Under the pieces are notes generated by a model. That model did no database searches, was not told the origin of the DNA, and saw nothing but the letters and a program-made list of their open reading frames with translations. Shown piece after piece: positions 53,041-62,360 of a stretch of 64,000 bases of DNA. The stretch's first letter is position 1. Each line of letters starts with the position of its first letter. The translations under genes were made by a program, and so were the position numbers. Source of the DNA: Chitinophagales bacterium (GTDB lineage Bacteria; Bacteroidota; Bacteroidia; Chitinophagales; UBA10324); NCBI GenBank assembly GCA_019694975.1, contig JAIBAY010000002.1, forward strand, positions 385,252 through 449,251, read 5' to 3'.

Positions 53041-54213
53041 ATGCCAACCGGAATTTCTATCGGCAACCTCATTATTCTCGTCGGTGCGGTTCAGGGTGTA
53101 TTCCTTTCCGTTATTCTCTGGAACCTGCGCTCAGGCAATAAGCTCTCCCATCGCCTGCTTGCTGCTTTCCTTTTCGTGTTTGCACTGGAGATGATGTATT
53201 TCGTCATTTGGGACAGTCGCATGATATTAAAAGCTCCTCACTTCTCTATGGTGTTGTCGCCACTGGATTTTGCCATCGGCCCTTTGTTTTATCTATATGC
53301 ACTGACACTTACCAGGAAAAATTTTGCGCTGAAGCGTATACATCTGCTTCATTTCCTGCTGGTATTGGCAGGATTCATTTATTTCCTGAAATTCTACATG
53401 CAGCCGGCAGTTTATAAATATGCATATAACCTGCAGAGCTATTCGCAGATGCCTGATCTGTGGCAGACATTCAGCATCATTAGCACAGTGCAGACCTCAG
53501 TTTATCTTGCACTCACCGTGCTGTTACTTCTGCAACATGTGCGGCGGGTAAAAAAGTATTATTCATCTATCGAAGAAATTGATCTGGGCTGGATCAGGAA
53601 TCTACTGCTGATCATCGCCTTTGGATTCATCAGTTGTTCGGCCATCACGGTTATAGGTTGGAAATGGGCGAACTATTATTCCAATATCGTCTTCTCATTT
53701 TCCATCTACGCCATGGGATATTACGGCATGAGGCAAAAATCCATTTTTGCCGACATCCATGAAGAAATTCAGCCACAGGAGGCAGAGCCTTTAGTGCTGT
53801 TAGCGGAACAACCTGAGGTAATAGCTAAAAAATATGAACGCTCAGGATTAACGGAAGATAAGGCTGCGCAATACCTTACCAGTCTTCACCTGCTGATGGA
53901 GAAGGAAAAACCTTACCTCAATCCTGAACTGACGCTGCAGCAACTTGCCGATCAGATGCAAATTTCGCTGCACCATCTTTCCCAGATTCTCAATCAGCAC
54001 AAACAACAGAACTTTTTCGACTTCATCAATCAGTTGAGGGTGGAGGAATTCAAAGAACGGCTGGCTGACCCTTCCAAACAGCACTATTCACTGCTGGCAC
54101 TTGCTTTCGATTGCGGCTTTAACAGCAAAGCAGCATTCAATGCCGCTTTTAAAAAACATACAGGTACCACTCCTTCGGCTTACCGTAAAAACCTCTCCAT
54201 CTCAACCGCCTGA
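53041..54213 (+). CDS. 7TM membrane-bound AraC-family transcription regulator
   Basis: 390 residues. Residues 1-245 hold about seven helices (ISIGNLIILVGAVQGVFLSV, LDFAIGPLFYLYALTL, LHFLLVLAGFIYFLKFY and others), forming an integral-membrane sensor. A linker and an AraC-type double HTH follow (about 290-385; LTLQQLADQMQISLHHLSQIL, then FDCGFNSKAAFNAAFKKHTGTTPSAYRK). This layout lets a membrane signal reach DNA directly. It is 60 bases after the E1 gene. A TATCTTCG sequence just before the ATG resembles the -7 element with one mismatch. The target genes are unknown; the adjacent desaturase-like gene is a natural candidate (inference). Confidence 0.88.
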   Translation: MPTGISIGNLIILVGAVQGVFLSVILWNLRSGNKLSHRLLAAFLFVFALEMMYFVIWDSRMILKAPHFSMVLSPLDFAIGPLFYLYALTLTRKNFALKRIHLLHFLLVLAGFIYFLKFYMQPAVYKYAYNLQSYSQMPDLWQTFSIISTVQTSVYLALTVLLLLQHVRRVKKYYSSIEEIDLGWIRNLLLIIAFGFISCSAITVIGWKWANYYSNIVFSFSIYAMGYYGMRQKSIFADIHEEIQPQEAEPLVLLAEQPEVIAKKYERSGLTEDKAAQYLTSLHLLMEKEKPYLNPELTLQQLADQMQISLHHLSQILNQHKQQNFFDFINQLRVEEFKERLADPSKQHYSLLALAFDCGFNSKAAFNAAFKKHTGTTPSAYRKNLSISTA

Positions 54214-54333
54214 TAATCAGGTGTTGATTTCTTCCCGAAAAAGTAAGACGTTCAACCTTATCGGTATGAGCGATGCGGCTGTTGCAGTGCAGTTACTTTG
54301 CCTTCATTCTTTTACTCATCAAAAAAGTCCATC

Positions 54334-55137
54334 ATGGAAGACCTTGCAGTAACACTGGGCAACATTCAACCCATCATCATCTTTTCAATGCTGATCAGCT
54401 TATGGGTGATAGAATCTTTCATCCCCTACTTTGCACCTTCACCAGGCAGGAAAAAAATGCGGCGCCGCAACCTGGTTATGGTGTTAATTTCCTTTGCGGT
54501 AAACGCACTTGCCGGACTTTATGTAAATGAAGTGATTCAGTTTACCGCCCGGCATCAGTTCGGACTGCTCAACTTGTTAAATCTGCCAAATGCCGTTTCA
54601 CTGACAGCCGGCATGCTGCTGATCGATATGTGGGACTATGGCTTTCACCTGTTGCAACATCACATTCCGCTCTTCTGGCGTTTTCACCGCGTTCACCACA
54701 GCGATACAGAACTCGATGCATCAAGTTCATTGCGGTTTCATCCGTTTGATATTATACTGCAAACATTTGGCTGGACGTTCATGTTCACCTTACTCGGCAT
54801 CAGCGGGCTTTGCTTCATGATCTACTTCACCTTCTATATCCTGCTCATCTTTTTTCAGCATGCCAACATTAAGATTCCTCATTTCATAGACTATTACGGA
54901 AGTTATGTTTTCTCAACGCCGGGCTGGCATAAAATGCATCATGCCGCAGAGCGGCCACTGACAGATTCACACTATGGTGATGTCTTTACTTTTTGGGACA
55001 GGATCTTTAAAACCGGAGGCCCTGTAGATGTAGAACATATTCAGTTTGGCATTGAATACTTCCGGCACGATGATGATCAGTCGGTGAAGAATATGCTGCT
55101 GATGCCGTTCAAACCGCTCTATCCGGATTCAAAATAA
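54334..55137 (+). CDS. Fatty acid hydroxylase / sterol desaturase superfamily membrane protein
   Basis: 267 residues from the ATG at 54334. Four or more helices and the eight-histidine diiron pattern: FHLLQHH near residue 105, FHRVHHSD near 118, RFHPFD near 132, FFQHANIKIPHF near 172, and HKMHHAAERPLTDSHYGD near 203. This family uses a diiron centre and O2 to hydroxylate or desaturate membrane lipids, including sterols, carotenoids and fatty acids. The substrate is not deducible. It follows the AraC-type regulator by 120 bases; a TACTTTG resembling the -7 element with one base fewer in the spacer lies at 54294-54300. Confidence 0.87.
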   Translation: MEDLAVTLGNIQPIIIFSMLISLWVIESFIPYFAPSPGRKKMRRRNLVMVLISFAVNALAGLYVNEVIQFTARHQFGLLNLLNLPNAVSLTAGMLLIDMWDYGFHLLQHHIPLFWRFHRVHHSDTELDASSSLRFHPFDIILQTFGWTFMFTLLGISGLCFMIYFTFYILLIFFQHANIKIPHFIDYYGSYVFSTPGWHKMHHAAERPLTDSHYGDVFTFWDRIFKTGGPVDVEHIQFGIEYFRHDDDQSVKNMLLMPFKPLYPDSK

Positions 55138-55245: not shown

Positions 55246-57999
55246 TTACTTTTGAATGATCAGCCTGCATGTCAATACCTGGCCGCCTGTTCTGACATTG
55301 ACTAAGTAAATCCCATCCGCCAGCAGCGTATCGCCGGTGATTGATTTATGCAACGCATCGCCTTCGATAGTGGCTTCGAAGCGTATCATGAGCTGATTCA
55401 TCATATTCCATATTTCAATCGTTGCACTTACCGGTGTCGCATGCTGCAACTGCAATTCAAGAATAAAACTGCCAGTGGTTGGATTAGGATAACAATTGAT
55501 CCGGCTGCCGGTTTGCAAATCACCGTCAGACGGATCTTCCTTACAGGAATTAACGACTTTTTGTGCGGCAGAAGTTTTGCTGCATCCGGCACCGTTGGTA
55601 ACTGTTACTTTGTAATTGCCCTTTTTTGTTGCGGCATAAACCTGGTCCGTTGCACCTTCAATTGTTGCGTTCCCTTTCAGCCATTGATAAGCAAAAGACA
55701 ATCCATCATTCGCCTGCAATAAAACAAAGCCTGTTGAGCAGATATCCAGATCACCCAATGGAATGATAGTGGCAAGTGGCGCAGCCATTACAGCAACCTT
55801 CGTTTTATCTGAAACAGATGAACAATCATAACTATTCATTTCACTGACCGTATAATTACCTTTCTTGTTCACGGCAAGAGCAGCATTGGTGGCACCGGCT
55901 ATGCTGTTCCCGTTCTTATACCACTGATAGATGAGGTCGCCGTCATTATTAGCAGTAAGTATGATTTCCGCTCCGTCACAGATTGTAATATTCCCTACAG
56001 GATCTACAATCGCTACCATCTGATGATCATCTGTTGCACCATTGCAATTATCATCCATGGTGTTGCAATAGTCAACGGCACCAGGATGAATGGAAGAATT
56101 TGCATCATCACAGTCTGTGCTGTCTGCCACATAGCCTGGCAATGGTTCATTGGATTGTATAAATACATCAGCATCTCCATACCCGTCACCATCGCTGTCA
56201 TAAAAAAATAACTGGTTGCCTGCTGTAAGCAGCACTTTAAGCAGACAACTGTCTTTGTAAATTTTTATGCCGGGCAACACTATCAGGCCACCATTGTAAA
56301 CCTGCTGACCGGATTGAACAACCGTATTATCATGCGTGACTGTCCATGCGTAAACTGCGCCGGGTGAAATGATGCAGTGCTGTAACCGGCGTGGTGTGAT
56401 ATCTGCTGTACAGGAATCAGGATAGTTCACCAGCTGTCCTGATTTAGTATACAGGTTCCTGGCAAATAATTTCACTTCCCATGATGTAGTGCTATCGGCG
56501 ATACTGCTTTCATCCCAATCCAGCGAACCATTCACCGTTCCAAAAGCCGCACCGGTGATATCATCGCCAATGCCATAATCCTCATCATTTGAACAGTGCG
56601 CAAAGGCAGGAAAAGAACGGTTGCTGGCATACCTGAACAAATCAAATGCTGCATCATTCCACGTGGAATTTACACCGGCGTGATTGCGCTGATCCCAGAA
56701 AAAATACCCACCTGTGTGATTTGCTTTTACCGAATCATAAAAAATTGTTTTTTCCGTCCAGCCAACCATCTCATCATGCTTTCCATTTATTGCAAAAATC
56801 ATTGGGAAATTTTTTTCCCTGTAAGCATGAATTATCCAACCTCCGTTCACCGCATTATAAAATGGTATGCCTTTATTCGACATCAGGTTGCTGTTTACAG
56901 TTCCGAATTTGATATCGCCATCAAGCCTGGCCTGATTGCCCTCGTTCAGTGCGCAATCAGGATCATAATCATGCTCAAAACTATAATTGAAACAGGGAAC
57001 GGATAAAAAAACAGCGGCAATTTTTTCAGGATGCGCTATGGCATACATGAACGCACTTCCCGCTCCCATAGAAGTACCTTTCAAATAAATCCGGTTGCTG
57101 TCAGCCGGAAAATGCATCAACGCCCAGTCAATGGTCAGTTTGGTTATTTCCTGCTGATAGTCATAATTGATTCCTGTTACCGGTACTTGATTTTCTGTGT
57201 TGTCTTTGTAAAAGTCATAGTTTTCATTGCTGCCATATCCGAGATCACTCTCTTCATTCGGTAATATGTCTTCCATCCCGATTTGTATCAGGTTACCGGG
57301 AGGCTTTTGCATATTCCATAAAAAATCCTCACCGCCACCATGAAAAAAAACTTCTATGGCATGAAGCCCTTCACCGGAAAAGTGAGGGTTCACCGCGAAA
57401 TCAAGTGATATGTAACCTGCCTTATTCTGCAAAGCTTCACCAACCGCTCTTTTGGTGGAATAGAAAGTTGTATAAATATCCACCGTTTCGCTTCCAATCG
57501 GGAAGTGTTGCTGAAACACTGGCATAACCGTTGCTACTGCTTCTCCGATGGGCAGCACGGTCGCATTGGCCCCGCTGTTAACAGAAATATCTTCCATCTC
57601 ATTCAGCACTGTTGTAACTGCGTAGTAATAACTTCCGTCCTCAAGTGTAGTTGCCACAAAAAGTCCTGTGCCGGAATTTAAGGGTATATCATTGGAGTCA
57701 ATACGGAAGTAGGAAACAACACCGTTATGCGCTGACAGGTTATGATCCTGCGCCGAATTATTGTCTGTATGCCCAAGATATTCACAACCGGCAAGTTGTA
57801 TACTATTGACTATGGGGGAGGTTGAACGGTATACCTTATAATAAACATCCGCAGATAAATTCTTCCAGGTGAGAAAAACCTGGCCGTGTTTATATTTTCC
57901 TTTGAGTTTGGTTACTGTATTTCCATAAACTGCCACATGGAATATTGCCGCCATAAAAAAAAACATCCAACGGAGATTACCATTTATTTGATGAGGCAT
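55246..57999 (-). CDS. Secreted alpha/beta-hydrolase with MopE-like and Ig modules and T9SS sorting domain
   Basis: 917 residues from the ATG at 57999 (signal peptide about 1-26). An Fn3-like module (about 28-150) precedes an alpha/beta-hydrolase domain (about 170-455) with a complete triad: Ser310 in GTSMGAG, Asp409 in INGKHDEMVGW and His440 in DQRNHAGVNSTW. Next is a MopE-like metal-binding motif (YDSDGDGYGDADVF...STDCDDANSSIHPGAVD...DDNCNG), two Ig-like modules (YQWYKNGNSIAGATN; YQWLKGNATIEGATDQ) and a T9SS sorting domain from CYPNPTTGSF. It looks like a secreted esterase or peptidase; the substrate is unknown. Confidence 0.8.
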   Translation of the reverse strand: MPHQINGNLRWMFFFMAAIFHVAVYGNTVTKLKGKYKHGQVFLTWKNLSADVYYKVYRSTSPIVNSIQLAGCEYLGHTDNNSAQDHNLSAHNGVVSYFRIDSNDIPLNSGTGLFVATTLEDGSYYYAVTTVLNEMEDISVNSGANATVLPIGEAVATVMPVFQQHFPIGSETVDIYTTFYSTKRAVGEALQNKAGYISLDFAVNPHFSGEGLHAIEVFFHGGGEDFLWNMQKPPGNLIQIGMEDILPNEESDLGYGSNENYDFYKDNTENQVPVTGINYDYQQEITKLTIDWALMHFPADSNRIYLKGTSMGAGSAFMYAIAHPEKIAAVFLSVPCFNYSFEHDYDPDCALNEGNQARLDGDIKFGTVNSNLMSNKGIPFYNAVNGGWIIHAYREKNFPMIFAINGKHDEMVGWTEKTIFYDSVKANHTGGYFFWDQRNHAGVNSTWNDAAFDLFRYASNRSFPAFAHCSNDEDYGIGDDITGAAFGTVNGSLDWDESSIADSTTSWEVKLFARNLYTKSGQLVNYPDSCTADITPRRLQHCIISPGAVYAWTVTHDNTVVQSGQQVYNGGLIVLPGIKIYKDSCLLKVLLTAGNQLFFYDSDGDGYGDADVFIQSNEPLPGYVADSTDCDDANSSIHPGAVDYCNTMDDNCNGATDDHQMVAIVDPVGNITICDGAEIILTANNDGDLIYQWYKNGNSIAGATNAALAVNKKGNYTVSEMNSYDCSSVSDKTKVAVMAAPLATIIPLGDLDICSTGFVLLQANDGLSFAYQWLKGNATIEGATDQVYAATKKGNYKVTVTNGAGCSKTSAAQKVVNSCKEDPSDGDLQTGSRINCYPNPTTGSFILELQLQHATPVSATIEIWNMMNQLMIRFEATIEGDALHKSITGDTLLADGIYLVNVRTGGQVLTCRLIIQK

Positions 58000-58213
58000 G
58001 GGCAGCAATTTTAAGAGGGTTGTATCAACAAGCTGGGGGCAAAAGGTGCATTGCACCTGGATGCGATAAATGCTAACTTAAAGATACCTTATTCTTTGTT
58101 CTTTTGATTCGATAGTGCCGTATGCTGCCAAAGCAAAGTTGAAACCGTTGATGTGAAATCCGGGCGTACTTCAATACTTCCATGTCTTCAAATATTCTGA
58201 AAACAACTGTTCA

Positions 58214-58270: not shown

Positions 58271-60541
58271 CTACTGTTGTACCGCAATTTTACCTGCGTA
58301 CACACGATTGCCAGCAATCACTTTAACCAGGTAAATGCCGGCGACCAGCTTTTGATCAGCCACGATTTCCTTGTGCAACAGGCCCTCAATTATGACTACC
58401 TGCTCCATAAGCACTACTTCATTTAACATATTGGATATTTCTATGGTTGCCGTGCCGGCCGTTACATTTTCCAGGTTAAGGTCAATCGTAAAATGACCTT
58501 GTGATGGATTGGGATAGCAGGTAAGAAGAGTGTTTACCTGCTCCGTTTGAAGCATGCCCTCTTTGCATGTCTTCACCACTTTAACCGCCAGTGAATTTTT
58601 ACTGCATCCGGCGCTGTTGGTAACCGAAACCTTATAATTTCCCTTAGCGGTTGCAGTATAAACCTGATTGGTTGCACCAGCAATAATGAGGCTTCCCTTC
58701 ATCCATTGATATTGGTAACCGCTGCCTGCTGTAGCCTGCAAGTCCACAAATCCCGCAATACAAATATCAAGATCGCCCAGCGGTGTGATATAAGCTGTCG
58801 GCAAAGCAGCAACAGAAACTTTAACAGTGTTGGACGTTGCAGTGCAATTGAAACCATTCTTTTCTGTCACAAAATAGTTACCCTTTTTACCGGCAACAAA
58901 GGTGGCATTGGTTGCCCCGGCAACGGCATTTCCGTTTTTATACCATTGATAGGTGATGCCACTCCCTGTATTGGCCTCCAGTGCAATCGTTGTTCCTGAG
59001 CAGATCACGATGCTACCGGCAGGCAGTACAATAGCGCTCAGTGAGTTTTCATCTATTAGTCCATTACAGTTATCATCCAGCCCGTTACAGATATCCTGTG
59101 CATTTGGATGTATGCCTGGATCTGCATCATAACAGTCAGTATTGATAGCAACATATCCGGAAGGCTTATCACAAGATGATTGGGTGATCGCAGCATTTCC
59201 GTATCCGTCATTATCAGCATCCTGATACCACAGTACAGGAATGCAGGATGAACATAACGTGGTTGTTGATGTGCCGGAAGCAGTAACAGAAGCAACTGTA
59301 TTAACGATTAGCACGGACGTGGAATGCGCGACGGGTACTCCCACCAGTATAGACGGCGTAGAAGAGGAAGAATTAACAGTCGTATTGCAGCCACTGTTGC
59401 CATCAGCATCTGTTTTAACAAGGTATAAACTGCCACTTGATCCATATACTTCATCCTTTACACCGGCCAGCACTAATCCACCATCATTCGCTTCCTGGAT
59501 AGCAAAGAATCCGGTCCATCCGGCATCGCCTATTGTCTTGCTCCATACAATACTACCGGTAGCATTGAGCTTCACCATATAACCGGCATGAACAGTTCCA
59601 AAGCTGGAGGTAGTGCCACAGAATACAAATCCTCCATCAGCAGTTGCCGTAACAGCATAAGCATCATCTTCTGCACTTCCGCCGATATTTCTTGTCCATT
59701 CAAGATTACCGCTTGCATCCGTCTTTACTACATTCACTTCAAAAATAAAGGCGCTGAATGTTATGCCGGCAATAATAAATCCACCATCATTAGCAAGGTG
59801 AACCGAATAATTCTGGTCATGACCGACATCACCATAGGACCTGTACCACAAGAGGTTCCCTGCACTGTCTGTCTTTATCAGGCACATATCATCATTGATA
59901 CCTGTGTTAAGGTTCTCCCATCCGCCGATTACGAAACCATGATCCGGTGACTGCAAAAGTGTGTATGCGAAATTTTTCCGCGTGCTGTTGCCAAAGGTTT
60001 TCGACCAAAGTACAGTTCCGGTTGCATCTACCTTCACAAGGTGGGCATAACCATTCAGCCCAGTCTGTTTCTCAGTTCCGGAAAAAACATACCCCCCATC
60101 CGCAGTCTGCAAAATCCCATAGGCCGCATCATTACTGGTGGTGCCATACGTTTTACTCCAGGTCACGTTACCGGCAGCATCCGTTTTTACCAGGTATGCA
60201 TCGGAAGCACCTGCGCCGAAACTCATCGTTGAGCCAGCAATGATGTAACCACCATCTGCAGTAGCTGCCACGGAATTTCCATGATCGACGCTGTTACCTC
60301 CAATGAATCGTGTCCAGAGCGTATCACCATTGGCATCTGTCTTCAACAGAAAAATATCGCCGCCGGCTCCTGCAAAATTGCCGGTGCCGACTATGATATA
60401 TCCGCCATCGGCTGTGAGCTGCACATCGTTTGCATAGTTGTCACCGGCTAAGCCATAAGTCTTTTCAAAAGTGTTCTGCGCCTGTAGTACAGTAGTGAAG
60501 AGAAGGAGGCAGAGCATCAGCATGTTGGTCGTTGCTTTCAT
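58271..60541 (-). CDS. Secreted propeller protein with MopE-like and Ig modules and T9SS sorting domain
   Basis: 756 residues from the ATG at 60541; signal peptide about 1-21 (LLFTTVLQAQ). Residues 25-380 contain about seven repeats with ADGGYIIVGTG, DIFLLKTDANGDTLWT and similar phrases, a propeller of the kind annotated in many Bacteroidota surface proteins. A MopE-like motif (YQDADNDGYGNAA...TDCYDADPGIHPNAQ...LDDNCNG) follows, then two Ig-like modules (YQWYKNGNAVAGATN; YQWMKGSLIIAGATN) and a T9SS domain from CYPNPSQGHF. The last 300 residues are closely paralogous to the C-terminal part of the neighbouring hydrolase. The frame extends 33 codons upstream without a signal peptide. Confidence 0.83.
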   Translation of the reverse strand: MKATTNMLMLCLLLFTTVLQAQNTFEKTYGLAGDNYANDVQLTADGGYIIVGTGNFAGAGGDIFLLKTDANGDTLWTRFIGGNSVDHGNSVAATADGGYIIAGSTMSFGAGASDAYLVKTDAAGNVTWSKTYGTTSNDAAYGILQTADGGYVFSGTEKQTGLNGYAHLVKVDATGTVLWSKTFGNSTRKNFAYTLLQSPDHGFVIGGWENLNTGINDDMCLIKTDSAGNLLWYRSYGDVGHDQNYSVHLANDGGFIIAGITFSAFIFEVNVVKTDASGNLEWTRNIGGSAEDDAYAVTATADGGFVFCGTTSSFGTVHAGYMVKLNATGSIVWSKTIGDAGWTGFFAIQEANDGGLVLAGVKDEVYGSSGSLYLVKTDADGNSGCNTTVNSSSSTPSILVGVPVAHSTSVLIVNTVASVTASGTSTTTLCSSCIPVLWYQDADNDGYGNAAITQSSCDKPSGYVAINTDCYDADPGIHPNAQDICNGLDDNCNGLIDENSLSAIVLPAGSIVICSGTTIALEANTGSGITYQWYKNGNAVAGATNATFVAGKKGNYFVTEKNGFNCTATSNTVKVSVAALPTAYITPLGDLDICIAGFVDLQATAGSGYQYQWMKGSLIIAGATNQVYTATAKGNYKVSVTNSAGCSKNSLAVKVVKTCKEGMLQTEQVNTLLTCYPNPSQGHFTIDLNLENVTAGTATIEISNMLNEVVLMEQVVIIEGLLHKEIVADQKLVAGIYLVKVIAGNRVYAGKIAVQQ

Positions 60542-60767
60542 AAAATTTATTTTTAGATTTCTATTAACTGATTGAATAAAGTGAGTTTGCATATTCACTG
60601 TTACCTTGTCATTATTTATTGTTGCATCTTGTTTTAACATGGATCTAACAGGCGGTTTGTGTTTTTAAAACATGAACGGTAACAAGAGTATCCGCGCACG
60701 GCAGCAATTCGCCCGAATGCAATACCCAAAAATCACTCACTGAGTATGCAGGACAACGGTATCATTT

Positions 60768-62360
60768 TTATTTTACGATCTGAATTTTGTTCGTTGACAC
60801 AACATCGCTCAGTGTCAGCCGCACAAAAAATGCCCCTGCCGCAATGTTTCCCGGCAGCGTTACCATCTGATTATAACTGCCTGTGTTTGTCATGCCATAA
60901 TTGCAACTGTAGATAACCCGGCCATGGAGGTCGAAAACAGTGAGCAATACGTCAGTTGGCTTTGTTAACCGGTAGTTAATCATGAAAGAACTGCCTGTAA
61001 CCGGATTCGGGAAAATTGAAACCGTTGGTTTAATCTCATTCTTTACGATTTCCTTCAATAATGCTGAGTTGCTGAATCTTGCCGTGAAAAAAGAACTTTT
61101 ACCGCCGTTTATATTCCAATATCCACCCACTACTATTTTTCCATCTGTCTGCAGTGCAACATCATTGGTTCCTATATAGCTATTGGTTACCAGCGATGTG
61201 TCCATCCCACCGGAACCGAATGCGTTATCAGGGATCCCCTGATCATTCAGTTTTGAAAGACCGACACCATATAAGGTACCCGTTGATGTCGGGATATATG
61301 CCGGGCCTGCCAGTACAATATCATTATCCGGCTCTATCGCCAAAGCTTCGCAATAGGCCGTGCCTCCGTAGAAGTTCATAAACTTCCAGCCGCCGCTTCC
61401 GAATGACTGGTCTATGGCACCATTTGGCTGCAGGCAAAGTGCAGCCACCTGCGTATTTCCAAAGTAGTTCGACATTCCCCCTAAAACAATCCGGCCGTCA
61501 CTAAGCAACCCGACTGATTCCGCTATATCCGTAGTGCCTTTATCAGCGCGTACAATTCCATTCGTGCCAAACGTATTGTCTGGCGTACCATTAGCGTTTA
61601 ACCTCACTGCAGCAAAATCATATCTGAAAAAAGCAGTTTGCACCAATGTATCAATATAACCTGCCGCTACTATTTTTCCGTCCGGTTGAATAGCAAGCTG
61701 CCTGCATTCAGAATGTTTGCCGGAGAGATACAAAGTGTACATACCATTATTGCCAAACGTATTGTCAAGTTTACCGCCTTTGGTTAATCTCACGATCAGC
61801 ATATTCCCATAGCCGCCGGAACCTCCCTGGTATCCTGCCAAAACAATTTTATCATCCGGCTGAATGGCAACATCAAAGCAAATCATGCCGCTGCCAGCAA
61901 TATTCACTTCAACATTACCTTTATCACCAAAACTTGTATCAGATGACCCGTTTTTATTGAGACGGTACACTATATAATTGTTCACGTTTGTGGGGCCCAC
62001 ACCGCTGCCGGCCACAATAATTTTTCCGGACGACTGTAGTGCCATATCACAGAAAAAACCACCGGTGATCGTAGCAATGCCTCCCGTTCCAAAATTGTTG
62101 TCGTACCCTCCATTCGGTTTAAGCCTGACTATGCCGATATTGGAATAACCGATTGAATTGAAGCTGTTACCTCCCGTCAGGATTTTACCGTTTGGCTGAA
62201 TCAGCACAGAGCGGGCAACATCATCCCTGGAAGGCGCAAGCTTTGTGGTTTTATAACCTGTTCCTGCAAACGACAAATCCAACTCGGGTTGCGCAAATGC
62301 CGGAACAATGATCAACAGCAGTAATACCACCGTTGAAAGAATCTTTGTAAAGCTTTTCAT
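60768..62360 (-). CDS. Secreted delta-60-repeat protein with T9SS sorting domain
   Basis: 530 residues; signal peptide about 1-23 (ending PAFAQ). About seven repeats of 50-60 residues follow the delta-60 pattern, for example IQPNGKILTGG...IVRLKPNGGYDNNFGTGG, VAIQPDDKIVLAGY...KGGKLDNTFGNNG and LQTDGKIVVGGYW. A type A T9SS sorting domain runs from IFPNPVTGSSF to the end. Unlike its two downstream neighbours it lacks MopE and Ig modules. Likely exported to the cell surface; function unknown. Confidence 0.83.
   Translation of the reverse strand: MKSFTKILSTVVLLLLIIVPAFAQPELDLSFAGTGYKTTKLAPSRDDVARSVLIQPNGKILTGGNSFNSIGYSNIGIVRLKPNGGYDNNFGTGGIATITGGFFCDMALQSSGKIIVAGSGVGPTNVNNYIVYRLNKNGSSDTSFGDKGNVEVNIAGSGMICFDVAIQPDDKIVLAGYQGGSGGYGNMLIVRLTKGGKLDNTFGNNGMYTLYLSGKHSECRQLAIQPDGKIVAAGYIDTLVQTAFFRYDFAAVRLNANGTPDNTFGTNGIVRADKGTTDIAESVGLLSDGRIVLGGMSNYFGNTQVAALCLQPNGAIDQSFGSGGWKFMNFYGGTAYCEALAIEPDNDIVLAGPAYIPTSTGTLYGVGLSKLNDQGIPDNAFGSGGMDTSLVTNSYIGTNDVALQTDGKIVVGGYWNINGGKSSFFTARFSNSALLKEIVKNEIKPTVSIFPNPVTGSSFMINYRLTKPTDVLLTVFDLHGRVIYSCNYGMTNTGSYNQMVTLPGNIAAGAFFVRLTLSDVVSTNKIQIVK

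Follow-up and report, generated by a model that had tools for sequence, protein, structure and literature searches.

What does the gene at positions 55246..57999 (reverse strand) of the window, a 64,000-nucleotide stretch of DNA from a Chitinophagales bacterium analysed here as a whole, probably send out of the cell, and is its product a singular assembly of domains or one copy among many? Read from an ATG at 57999, the frame encodes a protein of 917 amino acids (aa), hereafter the window protein; the open frame extends over 55246..58056 on the same strand, 936 aa counted from an in-frame GTG at 58056, and an alternative start is possible. A first-pass annotation had described an alpha/beta-hydrolase with a full Ser310-Asp409-His440 triad, exported by the type IX secretion system (T9SS) and combined with accessory modules in a way it judged uncommon. 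Our analysis of sequence and predicted structure indicates that the window protein is probably a serine hydrolase secreted through the T9SS, and that it most likely acts on carboxylic esters. It belongs to a multi-copy family that is seemingly undescribed and of a known enzyme kind; no name for the family appeared in the literature searched, which comprised titles and the openings of abstracts, with most subscription papers outside its scope.

One line of evidence comes from the active site. The predicted alpha/beta-hydrolase domain occupies aa 155-460 (56620..57537, approximate bounds), and within it the putative catalytic residues, all on the reverse strand, are the nucleophile Ser310 in the motif GTSMG (57070..57072), the acid Asp409 in NGKHD (56773..56775), and the base His440 in WDQRNH (56680..56682). 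The first-pass annotation had placed all three correctly in the numbering from the ATG at 57999. We aligned 82 members, the window protein included, from eight genomes of its own bacterial family (f1), excluding frames shorter than 250 aa as well as the matches on contigs G005:C467, C129, C377 and C525 and G001:C334 and C292. The triad columns show no substitution (Ser 81/81, Asp 80/80, His 81/81), the remaining rows being gaps. Because all three columns are invariant, gaps aside, across 82 aligned members, the triad is no chance motif. For alignment A1, 10 of the 81 non-window members, with a core of less than 520 aa, were left out, and 70 of the remaining 71 (L056 omitted) were combined with the window protein; in these 71 rows Trp414 and Asp436, which lie beside Asp409 and His440, are invariant as well. 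A smaller alignment, A2, holds 13 members and the window protein. Outside f1, the triad is kept by two members from f17, another family of the same order, as read from alignments, and, in the phylum Eisenbacteria, by 13 genes out of the 14 distinct ones that were read; the remaining gene has Arg at the Ser position and is spread over two frames. The member at L125:1192-3338, in which the nucleophile Ser was not found, is divided between two overlapping frames; the gene may be decaying, or the assembly may be at fault.

The first-pass annotation had named structure prediction as a check, and its outcome agrees with the conservation. The AlphaFold2 model of the core, built on A1 (model residue number equals protein number minus 23), has a mean predicted local distance difference test score (pLDDT) of 95.8 and a predicted TM-score (pTM) of 0.93, and it shows an esterase D-type fold in which the triad residues sit at the correct strand ends. 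Ser310 (model residue 287) opens helix 287-299 after strand 276-286, Asp409 (386) comes after strand 377-383, and His440 (417) follows strand 409-413, the order of placement that is canonical for alpha/beta-hydrolases and that is also found, as Ser, Asp, His, in the known esterase D / S-formylglutathione hydrolases. When the model was compared with known structures by VIA-align, the top nine rows were all of esterase D / S-formylglutathione hydrolase type (Z 21.0-22.1, root mean square deviation 3.3-3.4 A, 245-250 residues aligned), the best of them with Z 22.1, 3.4 A, 248 residues aligned, and 12% identity. S9 peptidases (Z 18.2-19.3), the feruloyl esterase BT_4077 (19.1), and antigen 85 (18.3-18.8) ranked lower; the Foldseek order by E-value is a mix of a lipase, esterases, and S9 enzymes. 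The likeness to esterase D (for example PDB 3s8y, 3i6y, and 3fcx) is confined to the catalytic fold of about 250 residues: identities are 10-14%, the top nine known chains are 268-281 residues long, whereas the window protein has a beta domain on either side of the hydrolase and then a tail, and its score for the S-formylglutathione hydrolase model TIGR02821 falls well short of the cut-off (15.2 versus 281.7). A search of the PDB with the family profile likewise gave mostly esterases as its best matches, namely acetylxylan esterase A (PDB 5x6s, E 6.4e-7, around the nucleophile), S-formylglutathione hydrolase, and feruloyl esterases.

Several observations weigh against reading the protein as an ester hydrolase. 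In their best stretches, the 60 PDB profile matches listed span only profile positions 157-348 and do not reach the Asp/His part. The Pfam Esterase model (PF00756) was found in 24 of the 71 cores (E up to 0.01), and in the window protein it gives a local match only around the nucleophile (aa 258-336, 23.1 bits versus a cut-off of 22). Among eight Eisenbacteria members scanned, Esterase was found in only three, one of them above the cut-off. The HGGG loop is unconserved, since 33 of the 82 rows have His at aa 220 and 18 have Glu, and one subfamily has the nucleophile motif GxSHNG. The neighbourhoods of ten paralogues in the window protein's own genome, with neighbours judged by eye from sequence ends only, contain no recognised sugar- or polymer-degradation or polysaccharide-utilisation cluster. 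The last point, together with partial sequence matches that leave the Asp/His part unreached, also marks a difference from BT_4077 (PDB 7xrt), which shares its fold, and from acetylxylan esterase A, both of which we take to be CE1-type.

A further set of unfavourable matches concerns the chief rival, that the window protein is a secreted S9-type peptidase (prolyl oligopeptidase or dipeptidyl peptidase) with beta domains in place of the propeller. Peptidase_S9 was found in 5 of the 71 cores (E up to 0.01) and in 4 of the 8 Eisenbacteria members scanned, one above the cut-off (28.3 versus 22.6), and S9 enzymes are many in the Foldseek list, at the Z values given above. Moreover, six Eisenbacteria members (L114, L115, L118, L119, L121, and L122) have a repeat stretch of about 420-500 aa or more ahead of the hydrolase core; the repeats are of a GGAYVAWxDxR type and, by eye, resemble a propeller in L115 and L121. 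However, Pfam names no propeller in these repeats, with no match there in the five of these members that were scanned, and a search with residues 1-500 of L114 gave no match in the 367 frames covered. The window protein itself has no match to the Peptidase_S9 model PF00326 at E up to 1, and the leading esterase D rows score about 3 Z units higher than the best S9 ones, with no propeller required. Finally, the core of full-length f1 members starts within about 110 residues of the frame start, so there is no room in them for propeller repeats. We consider the peptidase unlikely, and we infer an ester rather than a peptide as the target.

Less probable still is an extracellular polyester depolymerase acting on polyhydroxyalkanoate or polyethylene terephthalate (PET). 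It is suggested by weak, local hits to models of polyhydroxyalkanoate depolymerases, by Esterase_PHB in 9 of the 71 cores, and by a PHB depolymerase family esterase among the PDB profile matches (8daj, E 3.8e-5). In addition, T9SS-tailed esterases with PET activity exist in Bacteroidota: PET27 and PET30 are described as having a signal peptide and a TIGR04183-type sorting domain (PMC8767016). These are PETase/cutinase-like enzymes joined to a sorting domain, and the part of that source consulted does not mention the head, C-terminal sandwich, MopE, or immunoglobulin-like (Ig) modules of the window protein. Against a depolymerase, the scores of the window protein are far under the cut-offs (NF050058, 22.1 versus 150; TIGR01840, 14.5 versus 107.85) and cover the nucleophile region only, and PET hydrolase chains appear in the profile search only at E 0.025 and above. 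An acyltransferase comparable to antigen 85, which moves acyl groups on the cell surface with the same fold, is very improbable: antigen 85 also gives weak profile matches (E about 0.03-0.055), but it ranks under esterase D with 13-14% identity, and we know of no mycolate-like acceptor in these bacteria. The least credible proposal, a surface adhesin or structural protein that does not use its hydrolase fold for catalysis, would suit a multi-module protein that adjoins two delta-60-type T9SS proteins in a genome rich in MopE and T9SS tails, but the triad is kept across deep subfamilies and in all but one of the Eisenbacteria genes read, so an unused active site is unlikely.

If the window protein is an ester hydrolase, its action may be outlined as follows. 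The probable signal peptide (aa 1-23, 57931..57999, a hydrophobic stretch judged by eye) would take it across the inner membrane, and the type IX system would take it across the outer one. Ser310, activated by His440 and Asp409, would attack the ester carbonyl, with an oxyanion hole built from the HGGG loop together with the residue that follows Ser310, and the acyl-enzyme would then be hydrolysed. The putative oxyanion-hole loop corresponds to FFHGGG at aa 218-223 (57331..57348), which varies among subfamilies. The two flanking beta domains and the hydrolase would make up a fixed body, and the modules that follow would act as an exchangeable spacer between the enzyme and its sorting domain.

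The fixed body extends beyond the hydrolase on both sides, and its C-terminal part, like the multi-copy family itself, had gone without mention in the first-pass annotation. The head (aa 24-150, 57550..57930) is a confidently modelled domain in which strands predominate (AlphaFold2), Ig/Fn3-like by eye, with G39, Q40, Y57, G76, and N145 invariant in the 71 rows of A1. The first-pass annotation had called it Fn3-like. The strand-rich domain is borne out by the model; the Fn3 label was dropped, since fn3 models are absent from the 24 Pfam families matched by 47 heads (46 of 74 heads and that of the window protein, alignment A4) at E up to 1. The head profile gave no PDB sequence match (E up to 1). 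The RGI_lyase beta-sheet domain PF18370 is touched by 21 of the 47 heads (best E 9.8e-4), weakly so by the window protein (E 0.21, 12.4 bits versus a cut-off of 27.8); a link to pectin drawn from this likeness was set aside as guesswork.

The C-terminal beta-sandwich (aa 461-592, 56224..56619) has no Pfam match of its own. Modelled alone with AlphaFold2, it reaches a pLDDT of 95.2, and it contains the motif DITPRRLQ (aa 533-540), of which D533, T535, R537, R538, and Q540 are conserved in at least 90% of A1. Its profile gave no PDB sequence match (E up to 1), and among the 995 chains compared by VIA-align it had no strong structural neighbour (best Z 6.3, none at 8 or above). Glycoside hydrolase domains make up most of the top rows, along with some binding modules; because such low Z values may reflect a mere common arrangement, we assign no function to it. 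A beta-sandwich packing on an alpha/beta-hydrolase has been described in Thermoanaerobacter EstA3, where its deletion abolished activity on C12-16 substrates (PMC10816834). The likeness seen is one of arrangement, and the part of that source consulted mentions no head or T9SS tail. In the own genome, the sandwich profile (alignment A3, 77 of 78 listed stretches with L080 omitted, plus the window protein) matches the same 11 proteins as the core and no others (E up to 0.001), and head, hydrolase, and sandwich therefore behave as one block. The catalytic unit is thus a block of about 570 aa: beta-sandwich head, hydrolase, and C-terminal beta-sandwich.

The tail differs from this block in being modular. 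A predicted MopE-type metal-binding motif region (aa 593-660, 56020..56223) contains the acidic DxDxDG motif noticed in the first pass, as DSDGDGYGD at aa 601-609, and the Pfam model Cu-binding_MopE (PF11617) matches aa 629-658 over its curated cut-off (35.4 bits versus 27). Here the motif is a piece of the tail; that it binds copper or calcium, or serves as the calcium-stabilised stalk put forward in the first pass, would be a prediction. The two Ig-like modules expected before the sorting domain were recovered as two Ig_7 stretches (PF19081, 33.3 bits versus 27.3) at aa about 661-740 and 741-820 (55540..56019, bounds by eye). The T9SS type A C-terminal sorting domain occupies aa 837-917 (55249..55491); the NCBIfam model TIGR04183 matches aa 837-916 with 37.8 bits versus 23, in line with the export first proposed, and the Pfam model PF18962 stays under its cut-off (24.5 versus 27). 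The own genome encodes SprA of the T9SS machinery (TIGR04189, 2545.6 bits, cut-off 200).

The idea that this combination is uncommon was not supported for this organism. The own genome has at least 150 T9SS tails above the cut-off (150 of 361 candidates scored, all passing), and the 150 of 233 candidate MopE matches scored are spread over at least 18 open frames (distinguished by their contig and length), a count that does not include the frames of L045 and of the neighbouring gene. Five of the 11 own-genome copies bear MopE, with one stretch in the window protein and 4, 4, 6, and 6 in the rest; a contig end interrupts one of these five, and the other six copies show no MopE. A motif-pattern scan found MopE in at least 13 of the 74 members whose C-terminal end was covered, a lower bound because the pattern detects fewer than Pfam. 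The neighbouring gene at 58271..60640 (reverse strand) also ends in a MopE-Ig-Ig-T9SS tail, which shares 51% identity with the tail of the window protein (164/323 columns); its head has no match to the window protein and a weak, sub-cut-off DUF5122 / delta-60 likeness. As MopE and T9SS tails are abundant in the genome and the neighbour is alike, the MopE-Ig-T9SS combination is ordinary for this organism; MopE and Ig are common tail modules, and the tail is modular. A third consecutive T9SS-tailed protein, with six DUF5122 and seven delta-60 stretches, is encoded at 60768-62360 (reverse strand). Two giant frames outside the window (6667 and 6397 aa) consist largely of tandem MopE-type motifs with periods of about 69 and 66 aa; they lie in the own genome at G000:C2, about 117.7-135.8 kilobases (kb), and C3, about 322.3-338.4 kb. 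On the other side of the gene for the window protein, and convergent to it, an AraC-type regulator and then a fatty acid hydroxylase family protein are encoded at 53041-55137 (forward strand).

How far does the family extend? In the own genome 11 places match the core, and near-full-length copies number 11 to 14 per genome in the three genomes compared (the own genome, G003, and G010). Full-length matches were found in 8 of the 16 f1 genomes, and four more have only short matches around the nucleophile. In a search of 60 genomes, 8 matched (the own genome included), all from f1. Across 395 genomes of the phylum, with at most three candidates scored per genome, the own genome alone gave a full-length match. 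The sandwich profile reached further: order-wide, at least 15 of 396 genomes match, eight from f1 and seven from f17, both counts being lower bounds with at most 10 candidates scored per genome. At the f17 loci read, from two of the seven genomes, head, hydrolase, and sandwich are present, each locus being cut at one end. Named contigs yielded 15 loci in assemblies labelled Chitinophagales or Bacteroidetes, plus a single locus in Candidatus Eisenbacteria. In the Eisenbacteria phylum, long matches (E 3.6e-32 or better) occur in 13 of 47 genomes; of these matches the 14 loci L113-L126 were read. A restriction of the family to f1 was thus overturned by the Eisenbacteria matches and by the f17 sandwich matches.

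In a quick maximum-likelihood tree of 83 rows, built without bootstrap and omitting three Eisenbacteria rows (L125, L126, and L104, which is the L113 gene again), the 12 Eisenbacteria rows split off on one side of a branch with a Shimodaira-Hasegawa-like approximate likelihood ratio test value (SH-aLRT) of 100. The f1 members form several deep subfamilies, each with several genera, and the duplications are therefore old. The branch of the window protein is long (0.56); its nearest identity is 49%, and it has no close orthologue among the tree rows. At L069 and L070, in two genomes of one genus, four tandem family genes lie on one strand as collinear orthologues. Between G003 and G010, the 14 orthologue pairs have nonsynonymous divergences (dN) of 0.077-0.189; the ratio of dN to synonymous divergence (dS) is 0.030-0.038 in three of these pairs, and dS was not estimable in the other 11. 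The family is under purifying selection.

The copies differ around the predicted pocket. The oxyanion-side loop is HGGG in the window protein and HPGG, HAGG, YEG, DDNPF, or GGGN elsewhere in the family, and the nucleophile motif is GxSxG in some members and GxSHNG or GSSNG in others. Since the triad is fixed while the pocket-side loops differ, the copies probably act on different esters, and judged by their sequences the paralogues are likely to differ in substrate. Taking these results together, we tentatively propose, as a picture that we hold to be possible but short of probable, an apparently undescribed sandwich-hydrolase-sandwich family whose duplication predates the separation of today's genera in one Chitinophagales group and which is shared with Eisenbacteria, its copies forming an extracellular ester-cleaving set of differing specificity on interchangeable surface tails.

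The relatives that could be named derive from metagenome assemblies, and the C-terminal sandwich, which has no Pfam family match here, serves as a marker for finding members of the family. With 11 to 14 near-full-length copies in a genome, the three bacteria compared make a large investment in one type of enzyme. If the copies do differ in substrate, the family would allow a fixed triad to be compared against a changing pocket, and it might possibly supply new esterases for polymeric substrates.

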